NCBI RefSeq assembly: GCF_008802405.1
Contig: NZ_VZDO01000012.1
Span: 62,001 to 126,000 of the forward strand
Length of the DNA stretch: 64,000 nucleotides
From: Plantimonas leprariae
GTDB lineage: Bacteria; Pseudomonadota; Alphaproteobacteria; Rhizobiales; Rhizobiaceae
Direction: 5' to 3'
Part shown: piece after piece, positions 13,892-25,450 of the stretch
Position numbering within the stretch: position 1 is the stretch's first letter
Layout: each line of letters opens with the position of its first letter
Translations under genes and position numbers: made by a program
Notes under the pieces: model-generated
What the model saw: the letters and a program-made list of their open reading frames with translations, nothing else
Database searches by the model: none
Told to the model about the DNA's origin: nothing

Positions 13892-16441
13892 CTAGCGAAC
13901 GGCGACCAGCGAACGGCGGGCCGTTCGTCTGGCCGGCGACTTCGCGGCACCGCGCGCTTCGGCCACGAAGGCTTCCAGGAAGTGGCGCACGCGCGACGCG
14001 GCCATCGGCTTGCCGAACACGAAGCCCTGGACGATCTCGCAGCGCGCCTTGCGCAGCATCGCGACTTCTGCCGCCGTCTCGGCGCCTTCCGCGACCGCCC
14101 CCATGCCGAGGTTGCGCGCAAGACCGATGAGCGCGCCGACGATCGCTTCCGAGCCCTTGTCCACCAGCATCTGTGAAACGAAGGAGCGGTCGATCTTGAG
14201 GTAGGACACCGGGAACCTGCGCAGGTGCGTCAAGGACGCGTATCCGGTGCCGAAATCGTCGAGCGCCAGCCGGATCCCGGCCTCGTGCAGACGGCGCAGC
14301 GACGGGCCGATGATGCTGGCGTCGTCGTCGAGGAGGGTGCGCTCCGTCACCTCGATCTCAAGCGCGGAAGCGGGCAAGGCAGCCGATCGAAGCGTCGCCA
14401 GCACGCGGTCCGCCAGATCGCGCCCTTCGCCGTCTCGGGCGAACTCGCGCGGCCCGACATTCAGCGCGACGTGCCCGAACGGCACGCCGGAGCCGCTCCA
14501 GTCCCGCATGTCGGCGACGACGCGATCCAGCATGCGCGAGCCGAGGCGCATGGCGAGATCGGGATCCTCGAAGGCCTCGGCGATCTCGCCCGGCGAGCGC
14601 AGCCCGCTGTCGTCCGTCCACCGGAGGAGCGCCTCGAAGCCGATCACCTTGCCCGAGGCCAGCGAGACCTTCGGCTGGTAGAACGGCATGACGCAGTCGC
14701 GGTCCAGGGCGTCGCGGGTGCGCTGAAGCACCTTCGTCCGCCGAACGGCCTCGACCCGCATCGAGGCATCGAAGGCGAGGCTCCGGTTCCGGCCCGCCGC
14801 CTTCGCTGCGCGGAGCGCCAGGTCGGCGTTCCTGAGGAGCGCGGCGGGATCGAGGTCGTGTTCCGGAAAGACGGCCCAGCCGAGGCTCGGCGTGCATTCG
14901 AACGTCGCTCCGGCATGAGCTACCGGATGACGAAGCAGCGGCAGGCAGGCGGTGACCGCCTCGTCCAGCGACGAGCTGCCGTTCGGCAGGGGCACGATCA
15001 TCCCGAACTCGTCGGCACCGAACCGCGCGACGGTGCCGCCCGCCGGGCAGGCCGCCTTCAGCCGATCCGCGGTCGCTCGCAGCATCGCGTCGCCGGCATC
15101 GAGCCCGAGCGTGTCGTTGATCTCCTTGAAGCGATCGAGGTCGACGAGAACCACGCCCACCGAACTTCCGTCCGCGACGGCCTTCCGGATGGCTGCCTCG
15201 AGCTCGATATGGAAAAGCGTGCGGTTCGCGGTCTGCGTGAGGTTGTCGGTGTGCGCGGCGAGCCAGGTCCGGCGCTCGGCCTGCTTCAGGTCGGTGATGT
15301 CCTGAAGCGTGCCGATATGGAGGACGACGTTTCCCGCCGCGTCGCGGAAGACGCGGTTGCGGCCTTCGATCCAGCGCTCTTCGCCGGACGGCAGAGCCAG
15401 GCGGAAAGTGCTCGGCGGCACGTCCCGCCCGGCGTTCACGGCGAGCGAGAATTCCGCCCGGATCCGCGCGCGGTCGTCGGGGTGGATCCGTTCGACGAAG
15501 GCTTCGTGCGAGGTCGAGGCATCCGGCTCGATCCGCATCATCGCGAAGAGTTCGGGCGACCAGATCTGCCGTCCGGTCACCATATCCAGTTCCCAGGTCG
15601 CGAGCCCCGTCGCCTCCACGGCGAGGCGCAGGCGCTGCTCGCTGTCGCGGACGCGCTTGTCGGCCATGCGCCGGTCGTGGATATCGGTGACGATGCCGAC
15701 CCAGTCCGAGACCGTGCCGTCCTCGCGCAGCAGCGGCGTCGCATGGTCCTCGACCCAGCGCCAGTCGCCGGACCGGTGCTGCAGCCGGTACTCGATCAGC
15801 AGGCTCTTTCCCTCGATCATGGCTCGATCGGTCGCGACCTGCGCATGCTCGCGATCGTCCGCATGGAGAAAGCCGAGCCAGTCGTCGGCGTCGTCGGCGT
15901 CGTCCTGCCGTCCGGTGAACTCGAACCAGCCCCGCCGCTCCGTGATGCCGGTCGCGACGTCGAAGTGCCAGACGATCTCGGACGTCGCCTCGATCAGCGC
16001 CTTGTTCAGCCGGGCCGACCTGTCGAGGGCGCGCGCGGCCTCGTGCTCGGCGGTGATGTTTCTTGAGGTGACGAGCAGACGCGAGGCGCCCTGCCCCGCA
16101 TGCGGAACCGGAACGATGGTGCTCCGCCAGGCCTCCAGAGCCGCGTCGCGGCCGATCCGGACGCAGGAGACCTCCGCGACGCCGGTCCGGCCTGCCACGA
16201 GAACGGCCCGCCCGGCTTCGGCCCGGCTTTCGGCCGCCCAGAGTTCGCTCCACCGGCGTCCGACGGGCGATGCCCCCGTATCGCCGAACGCGGCTTCGCA
16301 ACTCGGGTTCGCCGACAGCACGGTTCCATCGGGCGAGATGACTGAAACGCAGTCGCCGCTCGTCGCGAAGACGAGGCGCAGCACGTCTAAGCCCGGATCA
16401 GCGCGATATTCGTCGACGGACATGCCAGTTCGGTATTCCAC
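13892..16441 (-). CDS. PAS-GGDEF-EAL c-di-GMP signalling protein with GADEF variant
   Basis: The product is 849 aa with no membrane segment. Three PAS-type sensor domains (about residues 20-130, 145-260 and 265-385) are followed by a GGDEF domain (about 390-555) and an EAL domain (about 575-830). The cyclase motif reads GADEF at 475-479, a one-residue deviation from GG[DE]EF. The EAL domain keeps the catalytic pattern: EAL at 603-605, LNVGPREF, EVTE, and DDFGTGY around 716. This suggests c-di-GMP hydrolysis with a weakened or regulatory cyclase domain. The start is uncertain: GTG 16441 is given, ATG 16423 is six codons downstream, and neither has a clear ribosome-binding site. Confidence 0.88.
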   Translation of the reverse strand: MEYRTGMSVDEYRADPGLDVLRLVFATSGDCVSVISPDGTVLSANPSCEAAFGDTGASPVGRRWSELWAAESRAEAGRAVLVAGRTGVAEVSCVRIGRDAALEAWRSTIVPVPHAGQGASRLLVTSRNITAEHEAARALDRSARLNKALIEATSEIVWHFDVATGITERRGWFEFTGRQDDADDADDWLGFLHADDREHAQVATDRAMIEGKSLLIEYRLQHRSGDWRWVEDHATPLLREDGTVSDWVGIVTDIHDRRMADKRVRDSEQRLRLAVEATGLATWELDMVTGRQIWSPELFAMMRIEPDASTSHEAFVERIHPDDRARIRAEFSLAVNAGRDVPPSTFRLALPSGEERWIEGRNRVFRDAAGNVVLHIGTLQDITDLKQAERRTWLAAHTDNLTQTANRTLFHIELEAAIRKAVADGSSVGVVLVDLDRFKEINDTLGLDAGDAMLRATADRLKAACPAGGTVARFGADEFGMIVPLPNGSSSLDEAVTACLPLLRHPVAHAGATFECTPSLGWAVFPEHDLDPAALLRNADLALRAAKAAGRNRSLAFDASMRVEAVRRTKVLQRTRDALDRDCVMPFYQPKVSLASGKVIGFEALLRWTDDSGLRSPGEIAEAFEDPDLAMRLGSRMLDRVVADMRDWSGSGVPFGHVALNVGPREFARDGEGRDLADRVLATLRSAALPASALEIEVTERTLLDDDASIIGPSLRRLHEAGIRLALDDFGTGYASLTHLRRFPVSYLKIDRSFVSQMLVDKGSEAIVGALIGLARNLGMGAVAEGAETAAEVAMLRKARCEIVQGFVFGKPMAASRVRHFLEAFVAEARGAAKSPARRTARRSLVAVR

Positions 16442-17684: not shown

Positions 17685-19022
17685 TCAGGCATGCCGCCGG
17701 GTTTCCAGCGGCTGCGCGTCGCCCTCGGAATGGAACTGCACGTTGTTCCGGCCGCGATGCTTGGCGCGATACAGCGCGGCGTCGGCGGCGTCGAGCAGCG
17801 CGCCGGGGCTGGCGAAGGTGGTCTCCTCGGTCGAGGCGACGCCGATGCTGGCGGTCATGCGGATCGGGCGACGCCCCTCGCCACGCGCGACCTGTGCCGT
17901 CGCGATCGCGACCCGAAGCTTTTCGGCGAAGGCGACGGCCTCGGCGACGCTCATGTTCGGCAGCAGCACCGAGAACTCCTCGCCGCCATAGCGCGCCGCA
18001 TGGCACGCGGCGCCCTCGCAGTGCGAGCGGAGAATCCGGCCCGTCGCCTGCAGGCAGGCGTCGCCGGACTGGTGCCCGTATTCGTCGTTGATGCGCTTGA
18101 AGTGATCGAGGTCGATGATCAGCACCGCGAGCCCGGCTTCGCGGCTGCGGGCGGAGCCGAACTCGGCGTCGAGCATCGCGTCGAAGCTGCGCCGGTTGCC
18201 GATGCCGGTCAGCGCGTCCTCGACGGAAAGCGCGCGAAGCACGGAGTTCGTCTGGCTGAGCTTGGCGGAAACCTCGCCGTAGGTCTCCACCGCGGTGGAG
18301 ATCATCCGCAGCTCGACGAACAGCGGAGCAGGCGGCGCGGCGCCGCTGAAGGTTTCCGTCCCGATCGCCGTCAACCGGTCGATCGTCGCGTTGATCGGCC
18401 CTGCGACATGCGTGCGGAACATCCAGAAGATCAGCAGCGAGCCGAGCACCGGAACGGCGAGGATCGCCATCCAGAAATTGGTGATGCGGTTCGCGTTGGC
18501 CTCGATCTTGTTGGAGACGTTGTCGGCGACGAACGCGGAGTCGTTGACGAGATAGTCGGCGAGCTGCCGTGCCTTGCGGATGGCCTCGTTGTAGGTGGTG
18601 CGGAGCTGCTCGGCCGTATCGCCTCCGGCCCCGACGGCGGCCCCGCCGCGCTCGGCCGCGCGCAGCGAAGTGATCCGCTTCACGTCGTCCGCGATCGCCT
18701 TGGCCCCGTCGATCAGGACCTTGTCGTTGTCCAGGGTAAAGGTCTGCGAAAGCACCCGCAGTTCGAGCTGGACCTGGCGTTCCAGCCGCGCATCGCGCGC
18801 GAGATAGGCGGAATGCACCAGCGAGGCCAGCTTCTCGACCTTCACCGCGTTGGCGTTCTGCGCCAGGATCTTCGGTATCTGGTTTTCGCGCGTGAAGCGC
18901 GCGTCGTTCTCGATCTCGCGCATGAACGAGAACGAGAACAGCGCGGCCGCCACGACGTAGGTCACCGACGCGGCGACGAAGATGCGCCCCGCCGTGACCA
19001 GCGAAAATGGATGCCGGAACAT
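17685..19022 (-). CDS. Membrane diguanylate cyclase, paired with a periplasmic binding protein
   Basis: The product is 445 aa. Membrane span 1 is at about residues 11-33, followed by a ~160-residue periplasmic region that is mostly helical, span 2 at about 182-203, a short linker, and a GGDEF domain. The active-site motif is the canonical GGEEF at 346-350, with RINDEYGHQSGDACLQ and DADAALYRAKHRGRN-type segments, so cyclase activity is likely. The inhibitory RxxD I-site is not present (GAAC stands at that position). The gene starts 24 nt after the stop of an amino-acid-type binding protein on the same strand, implying co-transcription and possibly ligand-controlled c-di-GMP synthesis through the periplasmic domain. 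Confidence 0.9.
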   Translation of the reverse strand: MFRHPFSLVTAGRIFVAASVTYVVAAALFSFSFMREIENDARFTRENQIPKILAQNANAVKVEKLASLVHSAYLARDARLERQVQLELRVLSQTFTLDNDKVLIDGAKAIADDVKRITSLRAAERGGAAVGAGGDTAEQLRTTYNEAIRKARQLADYLVNDSAFVADNVSNKIEANANRITNFWMAILAVPVLGSLLIFWMFRTHVAGPINATIDRLTAIGTETFSGAAPPAPLFVELRMISTAVETYGEVSAKLSQTNSVLRALSVEDALTGIGNRRSFDAMLDAEFGSARSREAGLAVLIIDLDHFKRINDEYGHQSGDACLQATGRILRSHCEGAACHAARYGGEEFSVLLPNMSVAEAVAFAEKLRVAIATAQVARGEGRRPIRMTASIGVASTEETTFASPGALLDAADAALYRAKHRGRNNVQFHSEGDAQPLETRRHA

Positions 19023-19046
19023 GCCGCGGTCTCTCGCTGCCTCCCG

Positions 19047-19799
19047 TCAGTAGATGCTGAACGGGAAGTAGTTCGCGTTGATGCGGTCGTAGGTGCCGTT
19101 CAGCCGCAGCCGCTTGATCGAGGCATTCACATCGTCGATCAGCGCGGCCTGGTCCTTGCGAGCCGCGATATGCGACGAGCTCTGGAAGTACTCGCCGGTC
19201 ACCGGGTCGCCGATATAGCCGAACTTCTCGCCTTCCTGGGACTGCATCCAGTCGAGCACCTGAATGGCGTCGATGAGGGTGACGTCGGCTCTGCCGTCGA
19301 CCACCATCTGAAGAGCGTCCATCGTCCCGGGAGCTTCCAAAATCTCGCTCTTCGGATAGAAGCGGTGCACGTAGCCGGACTGCAACGTGTCCTTCTGGAC
19401 GGATATGCGCTTGCCGGCGAGCGCTTCCGGCGTCGAATCCTCGATCTTCTCCGGATCCCCGACGAAACCCGAATGCGAGCGGTAGTAGGATTCCGAGAAG
19501 GCGACCCGAGCCGCACGCTCGGGCGTGTTGGCCATGCTCGCGACGATCAGGTCGTAGTCGTTCTTTTCGAGACCGTCGATGATGTTATCCCAAGGCACCG
19601 CGACATAGGTGCATTCGTCGCCGAGATCGGCGCAGATCGCCTTCGCGAGATCGACGTCGAAGCCGCCGAGCTGGCCGTCCTTGACGTAGTTGAACGGCGG
19701 GTAGGCGCCCTCCGTGGCGATCCGGAGCTTGGCGGCTTCGGCGGCGGCGCTGCCCGCAAGAAGCACGGAAAGGGCGAAGACTGCGGACGAAAGCTTCAT
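19047..19799 (-). CDS. Periplasmic amino-acid-binding protein (SBP family 3) without a transporter
   Basis: The product is 250 aa with a Sec signal peptide (cleavage near residues 20-23). The mature protein follows the family-3 pattern: LRIATEGAYPPFNY, GQLGGFDVDLAKAIC, VPWDNIIDGLEKNDYDLIVASM, and the hinge/ligand region with GKRISVQKDTLQ. This group binds basic or other amino acids. No permease or ATPase is nearby; the only partner is the membrane diguanylate cyclase 24 nt downstream. This arrangement argues for a sensing rather than an uptake role. ATG 19799 was chosen as the start of the signal peptide, although no strong ribosome-binding site is visible. Confidence 0.9.
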   Translation of the reverse strand: MKLSSAVFALSVLLAGSAAAEAAKLRIATEGAYPPFNYVKDGQLGGFDVDLAKAICADLGDECTYVAVPWDNIIDGLEKNDYDLIVASMANTPERAARVAFSESYYRSHSGFVGDPEKIEDSTPEALAGKRISVQKDTLQSGYVHRFYPKSEILEAPGTMDALQMVVDGRADVTLIDAIQVLDWMQSQEGEKFGYIGDPVTGEYFQSSSHIAARKDQAALIDDVNASIKRLRLNGTYDRINANYFPFSIY

Positions 19800-22761: not shown

Positions 22762-25215
22762 TCAGGCGGCGGATATCCCCGCCCGCGCCGGCCTGCCGGC
22801 CCGCTTCGCCTCGCCGCGCAGCGAGGTCGCGTAGGTTCTCATGAGCACAGCTGGGATGTCGCTCGGGGGCACCGGGCGGCTGAAGTGATAGCCCTGCATC
22901 TCCGGGCAGCCTTCCGCCTTGAGGGCGGCGTAGTGCTCCTCGGTCTCGACGCCTTCCGCGATCACGGCGATGCCGAGCGCCTCGCTGAGGTTGATCACAG
23001 ACCGGATCACGGCGAGGTTCTGCGACATCTCCATGCGGCGCACGAAGGACTGATCGATCTTCACCTTATCGAACGGATAGCGCGTCAGGTAGCCGAGCGA
23101 GGAGTAGCCGGTCCCGAAGTCGTCCATCGAGATGCGGATGCCGAGCGAGCGCAGGTCCGTCAGCGTCGCGAGGATGGCGTCGGCGTTCTCCAGCATCAGC
23201 GACTCGGTGACTTCGAGCTGCAGGCGGCTCGGCTCGATGCCGGTTTCCTCCACGATGGCGCGAATGTCCCGGAAAAGGTCGACGTTGCGGAACTGGATCG
23301 GCGAAAGGTTCACCGAGACCGTCAGGTGCTCCGGCCAGGTCATCGCCTGGAGGCAGGCCGTCCGCAGCACCCAGAGGCCGATCGGATGCATCAGCCCGAC
23401 ATCCTCGGCGATCGGAATGAACTCGCCCGGCGACACCATGCCGCCGGGACGCCGCCAGCGCAGCAGCGCCTCGAAACCCGACACCATGCCGCGATCGGCC
23501 TCGACGAAGGGCTGGTAGAACAGCTCCAGCTCGGCACCGTTCTCCACGGCCGCGCGCAGGGATATCTCCATCTCGCGCCGGCGCTGGAGCTTGTCGGTCA
23601 TCTCGCGGCGGTAGAAGCGGTAGGTGTTCTTGCCCTCGCCCTTTGCGCTGTACAGGGCGAGATCGACGCGCATCAGCATCTCGTCGGAGAGCGCGGGGTT
23701 CGCGTCGGGCGAGCTCGTCGCGATGCCGACGCTGACGCCGATCGACAGCCAGTGCCCCTCGATCTCGAACGGCTGGCCGACGACCGCGATGAATGCCTCG
23801 GCGCGCGCCGCGCAGACCTCGTCGTCGTGGGGTACAGGCAAGACCACCGCGAACTCGTCGCCGCCGATCCGCGCGACAAGTTCGCCGGGTTCCAGGCAGG
23901 CGCGCAGCCGGACGGCCACCTCCTGCAGCAGCTTGTCGCCGATCGGATGCCCGAGCGCGTCGTTCACCGTCTTGAAGCCGTCGAGATCGAGGCCGAGCAC
24001 CGTGACGCCCCGGTCGAGGAGCGCAGCCTCCAGATGCTCGCGGAAGCGCATCCGGTTCGGCAGGTCCGTCAGCGGATCGTGGCTCGCGAGGTGCCGCATC
24101 ACCTCGTCCTCGCGGAAGCGCTCGGTGACGTCCTCCATCGTCGCGACGAAGCCGCCGCCGACCACGCCGCGCCGCGACAGCGCGAGCGTCCGGCCGTCCT
24201 TCAGCGTTTCGAGGAAAGTGCCCGTGCCGTTCGCCGCGAGCGTCAGCTTCAGGATCTCGTCCTGTCGCACCTCCTCCAAGCCCATGCCGATCCGGCGCTT
24301 GCCGAACATCTCCTCGAACCGGCGGTTGACGACCACGAGGTCGCGGTCGCGATCGAACAGGCAGAGCGCCTGGGACATGTTGTCGAGCGCCGCCTGGAAC
24401 CGGGCGTTCTGGGTGGTGATGGTTTCCGTGTAGCCGCTCGCCTGCTGCAGCCGCGTCGATTCGACGTGCCGGAGCTTCTCGGCCATGCCGGACTGAACCG
24501 AGGCGAGCGCCTCGAGGAGCCCCTTGCCTTCGGCCCCTTCCACGATGTCGATCCGGTTGTGCAGCTTGCCCGAGGCAATGGCCCGCGCCAGCCGCTCGGC
24601 GCGACGCAGCGGCAACACCGCCGAACGCGTCAGCACGAGGACGCTCGCGACCGCGAGCATCAGCGTGGCGACGGCGCCCGCCATCAGTCGACGGGCGCCG
24701 TCGGCGTGGCTTCGCTTCGCCGCATCGTGCAGCGCGGCGAGGCCGGGACGGGCTTCCCGGACGGCTGCGGCGATATCGTTCGCGGTCCGGTCGAGTTCCT
24801 CGAAGAACTTGCGGCGGGACATGTCGGCGCGCGACTTCCAGGCGCGGTCGAGATGCAGCTCCGCGCCCTGCAGTTCCGCATCGATCGAGACATAGATGTC
24901 GTCGCGCGGCAGGAGGGCGCGGATCGCGGCGAGATCGGCCATCGTCGCGGCCAGCCGGTCGACGAGCTCGGGCGGCAGCGAAAGGCGCCTCTCGCCTTCC
25001 GCGATCGGCCCGGCATGCAAGGCCTCGTCGGCTTTCAGCGCGACAAGCGACAGTTCCGCGCCGCGCAGCCGGTCGAACGCCAGGACGCCGATATCCACGA
25101 CGCGCGCGGTCATCGCGTCCGCATCCCGCTGCCACGAGTGCGCCCAGCCGCCGACCGCCATGGCGACGACCGCCAGGGTCGTGCATGAGACGACAAGCTT
25201 CAGACGCAGCGACAT
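22762..25215 (-). CDS. Membrane-bound HAMP-PAS-GGDEF-EAL c-di-GMP protein
   Basis: The product is 817 aa. Span 1 is at about residues 5-25, followed by a ~155-residue helical periplasmic sensor region and span 2 at about 180-203. A HAMP-like linker leads to a PAS domain (about 265-375), a GGDEF domain with intact GGDEF at 451-455, and an EAL domain with EAL at 582-584, LSPIQF, EVTESLML and DDFGTGYSSL. Both catalytic motifs look complete, so it could synthesise and degrade c-di-GMP; an RxxD I-site is not evident. ATG 25215 begins just before span 1; longer readings add a non-conserved Arg-rich tail. It is transcribed divergently from dps. Confidence 0.9.
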   Translation of the reverse strand: MSLRLKLVVSCTTLAVVAMAVGGWAHSWQRDADAMTARVVDIGVLAFDRLRGAELSLVALKADEALHAGPIAEGERRLSLPPELVDRLAATMADLAAIRALLPRDDIYVSIDAELQGAELHLDRAWKSRADMSRRKFFEELDRTANDIAAAVREARPGLAALHDAAKRSHADGARRLMAGAVATLMLAVASVLVLTRSAVLPLRRAERLARAIASGKLHNRIDIVEGAEGKGLLEALASVQSGMAEKLRHVESTRLQQASGYTETITTQNARFQAALDNMSQALCLFDRDRDLVVVNRRFEEMFGKRRIGMGLEEVRQDEILKLTLAANGTGTFLETLKDGRTLALSRRGVVGGGFVATMEDVTERFREDEVMRHLASHDPLTDLPNRMRFREHLEAALLDRGVTVLGLDLDGFKTVNDALGHPIGDKLLQEVAVRLRACLEPGELVARIGGDEFAVVLPVPHDDEVCAARAEAFIAVVGQPFEIEGHWLSIGVSVGIATSSPDANPALSDEMLMRVDLALYSAKGEGKNTYRFYRREMTDKLQRRREMEISLRAAVENGAELELFYQPFVEADRGMVSGFEALLRWRRPGGMVSPGEFIPIAEDVGLMHPIGLWVLRTACLQAMTWPEHLTVSVNLSPIQFRNVDLFRDIRAIVEETGIEPSRLQLEVTESLMLENADAILATLTDLRSLGIRISMDDFGTGYSSLGYLTRYPFDKVKIDQSFVRRMEMSQNLAVIRSVINLSEALGIAVIAEGVETEEHYAALKAEGCPEMQGYHFSRPVPPSDIPAVLMRTYATSLRGEAKRAGRPARAGISAA

Positions 25216-25425
25216 CCGACCATCCGCGGTCACCTGTTTCGGGCGACGTGTCGCATGCCGACGGTTACCTCCCCGTGACCCCGCCGCAGCAACGGGAGCC
25301 GATTTCGGCTTCGCTCGCGTTTCGCGGTTAACGAGCCCTGTATCGTCTTGCCGCGCCGCTTCCGCAGCTTTCCGGCGGGTTCCGCAGGGATCGCGTCGCG
25401 GCTGCCGTCTCGGAGCCGCAGGGCA

Positions 25426-25450
25426 GGAACACTCCCGCCCCTCGGTCATT
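25426..25450 (+). promoter_or_regulatory. Possible EcfG-type general-stress promoter of dps
   Basis: GGAAC (25426-25430), then 16 nt, then CATT (25447-25450) approximates the alphaproteobacterial EcfG pattern GGAAC-N16/17-CGTT with one mismatch. It lies ~30 nt before the dps ATG. The only support beyond the motif is that Dps is a stress gene. Confidence 0.25.

Follow-up and report, generated by a model that had tools for sequence, protein, structure and literature searches.

Conserved pairing of a periplasmic amino-acid-binding protein gene with a membrane diguanylate cyclase gene in Plantimonas leprariae and other Rhizobiales

Introduction

In Plantimonas leprariae, the gene for a periplasmic binding protein from a transporter family lies immediately before the gene for a membrane diguanylate cyclase, and this arrangement raises the question of whether the binding protein still serves uptake or has become the receptor half of a system that adjusts c-di-GMP. 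The pair lies in a stretch of 64,000 nucleotides (contig NZ_VZDO01000012.1, positions 62,001 to 126,000), hereafter the window, for which a preliminary description had proposed that an amino-acid-type receptor controls the cyclase. We followed up this proposal computationally, considering the locus itself, the distribution of the pair in other genomes, the features of each protein, and the systems already known in which a binding protein acts on a membrane receptor.

The gene pair in the window

Table 1. Features of the gene pair, in window positions
Feature	Position	Strand	Description
Binding-protein gene	19047..19799	minus	250 aa, ATG start; SBP_bac_3, ArtI/LAO (basic amino acid) type
Diguanylate cyclase gene	17685..19022	minus	445 aa, ATG start; TM1, predicted four-helix bundle, TM2, linker, GGDEF
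Periplasmic sensor part of cyclase	18477..18923	minus	About residues 34-182; predicted helical, without Pfam family
GGEEF active-site motif of cyclase	17973..17987	minus	Residues 346-350
Intergenic spacer between the two genes	19023..19046	minus	24 nt

The binding protein matches the SBP_bac_3 profile (PF00497) over residues 25-246 (E=8.9e-37; 126 bits against a cut-off of 26.4) and begins with what, judged by eye, is a Sec-type signal peptide of about residues 1-22 (MKLSSAVFALSVLLAGSAAAEA), in agreement with the signal peptide and family-3 fold that had been described. The cyclase carries a GGDEF domain (E=2e-41, profile search) with the metal and substrate motifs GGEEF, intact within RYGGEEF, and DLDHFKRIND. 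Its hydrophobic spans, at about residues 14-34 and 183-203, bear out the two-span architecture given earlier, but they leave a periplasmic part of about 145-150 residues instead of the ~160 first stated. A Pfam profile search found no EAL domain in the window cyclase, and the RxxD inhibition site is absent ahead of RYGGEEF. Judged by these motifs, the protein is predicted to be a diguanylate cyclase that synthesizes c-di-GMP.

The cyclase was also said to be the only operon partner of the binding protein, 24 nt downstream. The spacing is correct and both reading frames are on the minus strand, but the locus alone does not establish the word "only", since a quinone-reductase-type gene (17623-16562, same strand) starts about 60 nt past the cyclase gene and no terminator is predicted between the two. 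What singles out the two-gene unit is its conservation across other genomes. The reported lack of transporter genes beside the binding protein holds: permease queries gave no amino-acid permease match anywhere in the window, and all confident TIGR01726 permease matches of the genome lie on other contigs, most of them adjoining other binding-protein genes. No RNA families or tRNAs were found within the window. The genome has 11 SBP_bac_3 and 26 GGDEF matches in total, for which about 0.03 adjacent pairs are expected by chance (our own estimate, with ~4,500 genes assumed), and chance can be ruled out because the pairing recurs in unrelated surroundings.

Two GGDEF-EAL proteins with PAS domains, encoded at window positions 13892-16441 and 22762-25449 (minus strand), flank the pair within a few kb. 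A second SBP_bac_3 protein of the genome (L121, G000 C13, at about 57.8 kb) has no TIGR01726 permease nearby.

Conservation of the pair

A scan of ~85,000 species genomes with the sensor region returned 31 loci, in Rhizobium, Phyllobacterium, Ferranicluibacter, Endobacterium, and other Rhizobiales, and in all 31 a binding protein with 49-56% identity is encoded directly upstream on the same strand. Within the Rhizobiaceae, the sensor profile was found in 11 of 395 genomes, the window's own included, and each of the 10 other carriers (among 394 other genomes), several of which are also among the 31 loci, has the binding protein directly upstream. Separate searches of plasmid records with the two proteins ranked the same Rhizobium megaplasmids at the top, with the genes adjacent at all eight of the plasmid loci examined; there, the identity of the binding protein drops from about 53% in paired records to 41% in the next ones, and two annotated records at the 41% step lie in ABC operons. 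One more pair comes from a different family of the same order and shows 59% identity in the binding protein and 48% in the sensor part. Thus, conservation of the gene pair, on which the preliminary description had staked its proposal, is seen in each of these samples. The spacer between the genes varies from 3 to 39 nt among the relatives, and the reading frame of one gene relative to the other is not conserved.

The reverse search agrees with this picture. When 218 genomes of the family were searched from the side of the binding protein, paired-type proteins appeared solely in the sensor-carrying genomes identified before. Over all searches, no case of either partner alone was found among the limited number of candidates scored in each genome, from which rare exceptions could escape. 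No match came from scanning the ~85,000 species with only the binding protein, its search patterns being overly specific. Weak matches to the sensor profile elsewhere, partial, with E above 1e-6 and mostly covering the TM2 and linker part, were left out of the counts.

A search of 99 relatives found no sensor region, not even in the five congeners among them; the impression from this search that the pair is not conserved was overturned by the plasmid records and the search of the 395 family genomes. This patchy spread, the lack of the pair in the congeners, and the position of the closest relative in another family suggest transfer between lineages. In that closest relative (L124, G1117 C155), a draft assembly, the reading frame of the cyclase is broken at the second membrane span. 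Rhizobium sp. S152 (L083/L099) and isolate AFS066368 (L090/L103) each carry the pair twice, on different contigs.

Across 35 loci, only the two genes are common to all, and the next most frequent real gene, which is GGDEF-containing, is present in 9 of the 35. Given that no third gene occurs in more than these nine loci, the two-gene unit has been kept by selection rather than passive inheritance, persisting as its neighbourhood changes. The GGDEF-containing genes near the pair, in these nine loci as in the window with its GGDEF-EAL genes, may be a mark of c-di-GMP gene clusters.

The surroundings of paired and unpaired binding proteins differ with respect to transport. No amino-acid permease was found near the paired loci, most of which were covered for 4-6 kb on each side, whereas a permease lies beside 24 of the 29 nearest unpaired relatives of the binding protein. 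The unpaired relatives with no permease match in the stretch covered are L021, L025, L034, L039, and L050.

The binding protein

The best general family for the binding protein is TIGR01096 (lysine/arginine/ornithine), followed by ArtI/ArtJ, though with scores short of their curated cut-offs, and among solved structures the protein is closest to arginine-, LAO-, and histidine-binding proteins and to reconstructed ancestors. In a maximum-likelihood tree, all 35 paired binding proteins fall on one side of a branch with support of 100/98, and they share a C-terminal FPFSIY motif.

We compared the residues of these 35 proteins with those of 36 unpaired ones. The positions that align with the LAO pocket (E30, Y33, F47, W70, S88, R95, T138, and D177) are invariant in the paired proteins, and R95 and D177 align with the contacts that LAO makes with the alpha-amino acid, where an arginine serves the carboxylate and an aspartate the amino group. 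Other positions are fixed or nearly fixed in the pairs only: R107, S108, D158, P160, S207, A213, and L233, together with H109, which is P in 28 of the 36 unpaired proteins, and H210, which is G in 33 of the 36. The simplest reading of these sequence patterns is that the paired proteins have kept the amino-acid pocket and altered a partner surface, on which the switched residues would presumably lie.

A transporter-type relative with 41% identity (L048, 5001-5687) is encoded in a guanidino-acid/arginine-related ABC operon that includes a gene for 5-guanidino-2-oxopentanoate decarboxylase, and this neighbourhood hints at an arginine-type ligand.

The sensor region of the cyclase

The GGEEF motif is intact in all 34 relatives of the cyclase, and the periplasmic part is conserved to the same degree as the catalytic domain (mean identity of 51% vs 51%). 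No Pfam family matches the segment that separates the two spans of the window protein, the relatives of the sensor gave no match to 4HB (4HB_MCP) beyond one at E=0.07, and a PDB sequence search with the region found no match. An AlphaFold model built from 31 sequences shows four long helices in order (mean pLDDT 83.6, pTM 0.56), the first and last of which are predicted to be continuous with the membrane spans. The invariant polar residues of the sensor are concentrated in helices 1-2 (residues 48-95).

Foldseek searches with this model gave weak matches only, all with E above 0.01. The best is NarQ (E=0.016), and others are QseE bound to QseG, the D-lysine-binding domain of Vc1313, and LytS bound to XylFII (5xsj_L, E=0.55). 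On the model, these matches would place the region among bundle sensors, some of which are controlled by another protein, with a likeness that appears generic.

Proposed mechanism and alternative readings

Given that the binding protein and the cyclase are encoded side by side, and never with transport genes, at every locus covered, they are very probably a dedicated sensor pair. We propose, with a probability of roughly 0.78, that the ligand-bearing binding protein docks on the four-helix bundle of the cyclase and thereby sets c-di-GMP synthesis. The exported binding protein would capture an alpha-amino acid, with arginine, lysine, ornithine, or a derivative as the likeliest candidates, and close around it; the closed form would then dock on the periplasmic bundle. 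Since the first and last helices of the bundle run into TM1 and TM2, docking would be expected to rearrange how the transmembrane helices and the GGDEF dimer pack, and synthesis would change in consequence, most simply by being switched on.

Two analyses addressed contact between the partners. The correlation of distance matrices between the two proteins is 0.94, little more than the 0.90 obtained with the GGDEF domain, so that it speaks for joint inheritance rather than for contact. An AlphaFold model of both genes read through the in-frame stop gave a pTM of 0.40 and no confident placement, and its short linker fits the topology badly, so that the model weighs neither for nor against docking. 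A point against the proposal is the lack of the sensor in the five congeners searched. The idea of a real read-through fusion, suggested by the two genes being in frame in the window, was rejected because the frame varies among the relatives and a fusion would invert the topology of the cyclase.

The binding protein might instead be an ordinary uptake component of a distant permease, with its place before the cyclase gene being incidental or regulatory only. It does belong to a transporter family, the genome encodes several amino-acid permeases on its other contigs, and in E. coli ArtI and ArtJ use one common transporter. We nevertheless regard an uptake role as highly improbable, considering that the linkage to the cyclase is invariant at all loci though the surroundings change, that permeases are missing near them, and that the paired proteins group apart in a clade of their own, in which several positions are switched. 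Somewhat less improbable, though still quite unlikely, is that the four-helix bundle itself senses a small molecule and the binding protein buffers or delivers it, or that both signals are integrated. NarQ and Vc1313 (D-lysine), which sense their ligands directly, are among the weak fold matches, and the invariant polar residues of helices 1-2 might line a pocket just as they might make up a docking face; however, no member of the sensor family turned up without a binding-protein partner, and matches with E above 0.01 reflect the common bundle fold only.

The sign of control is a question within the docking proposal itself. The empty binding protein could dock and hold the cyclase in one state until the ligand releases it, and no feature of the sequence settles the sign. 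In V. cholerae, NspS leaves MbaA in the presence of spermidine, and modelling suggests that apo-NspS can also bind MbaA (PMC8967002). On the other hand, reviews state that, in general, it is the ligand-loaded form that binds the receptor (PMC9602780), and we consider the opposite sign unlikely, but the most credible of these alternatives.

Relation to known systems

ArtI, a protein of the type discussed here, also serves as a transporter component. In Salmonella Typhimurium, according to a review (PMC8846402), ArtI is needed for the membrane cyclase STM1987 to respond to L-arginine, so that, as proposed for the window pair, an ArtI-type amino-acid-binding protein acts on a membrane cyclase. 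The sensor of STM1987 is a dCACHE_1 domain (PMC8846402), whereas that of the window cyclase is a predicted all-helical bundle without a Pfam family, and strict pairing without transporter genes, as in the window pair, is not described for ArtI-STM1987 in the text consulted (PMC8846402).

NspS-MbaA of Vibrio cholerae and Sinorhizobium meliloti, in which a binding protein relays polyamines to a c-di-GMP enzyme (PMC8967002, PMC9993111), had been put forward as a precedent, and PMC8967002 confirms it as such. As in the window, the binding-protein gene lies directly upstream of that for a two-span c-di-GMP enzyme without RxxD (PMC9993111). The components differ: NspS is of the PotD type, and MbaA combines GGDEF (as SGDEF) and EAL domains with a HAMP domain and a periplasmic part of ~230 residues (PMC9993111), while the window pair consists of an SBP_bac_3 protein and a GGDEF cyclase without EAL and with a bundle of ~145 residues.

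Other systems resemble the proposal in part. For GlnH-GlnX-PknG (Asp/Glu), found in Corynebacterium and other Actinobacteria, a comparable proposal has an SBP_bac_3 protein acting on four-helix bundles in the periplasm (PMC9769921), although GlnX has tandem bundles and the output is a Ser/Thr kinase. In the solved XylFII-LytS complex (D-xylose), a binding protein sits on the four-helix bundle of the sensor (PMC9769921), but it is of another family, the output is a histidine kinase, and the 5xsj_L match to our model is not significant. Periplasmic binding-protein-type domains also act as c-di-GMP sensors in RmcA and CdgH (PMC8846402; PMC5431781), where domain and enzyme are fused in one chain, in contrast to the separate proteins of the window pair. 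Furthermore, a review lists diguanylate cyclases and phosphodiesterases among the receptors activated by binding proteins (PMC9602780), and the adjacency of binding protein and receptor is conserved in the family of the window pair. Between them, the known systems offer a precedent for every step of the proposed mechanism.

Thus, the earlier claim of an undescribed nutrient-to-c-di-GMP system stands for the gene family, within the literature covered, and falls for the concept, given ArtI-STM1987 (PMC8846402) and PMC9602780. The principle is already known from ArtI-STM1987, NspS-MbaA, and GlnH-GlnX; the sensor family and the gene pair are new as far as the open-access literature goes, in which we found no description of either, most subscription papers lying outside it.

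Significance

The ligands of most diguanylate cyclases are unknown. In the paired system, the ligand-binding half is a soluble protein in its own right and belongs to a well-understood family, so that the signal could be found by simple ligand screening. Many of the named carriers are legume-nodule or plant isolates, and the signal may therefore be plant-derived. A broader reading, which we put forward as speculation and think unlikely to hold in full, is that in a plant-associated sensor family of rhizobia and relatives a protein once used for arginine- or opine-type uptake now serves as a dedicated part of a receptor, which would report a basic amino acid or opine-like compound of plants or microbes to c-di-GMP by way of a new sensor domain and would spread between genomes as a two-gene unit. 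The strict gene pair is also a well-defined case for testing how a binding protein gave up transport and turned into one half of a receptor.
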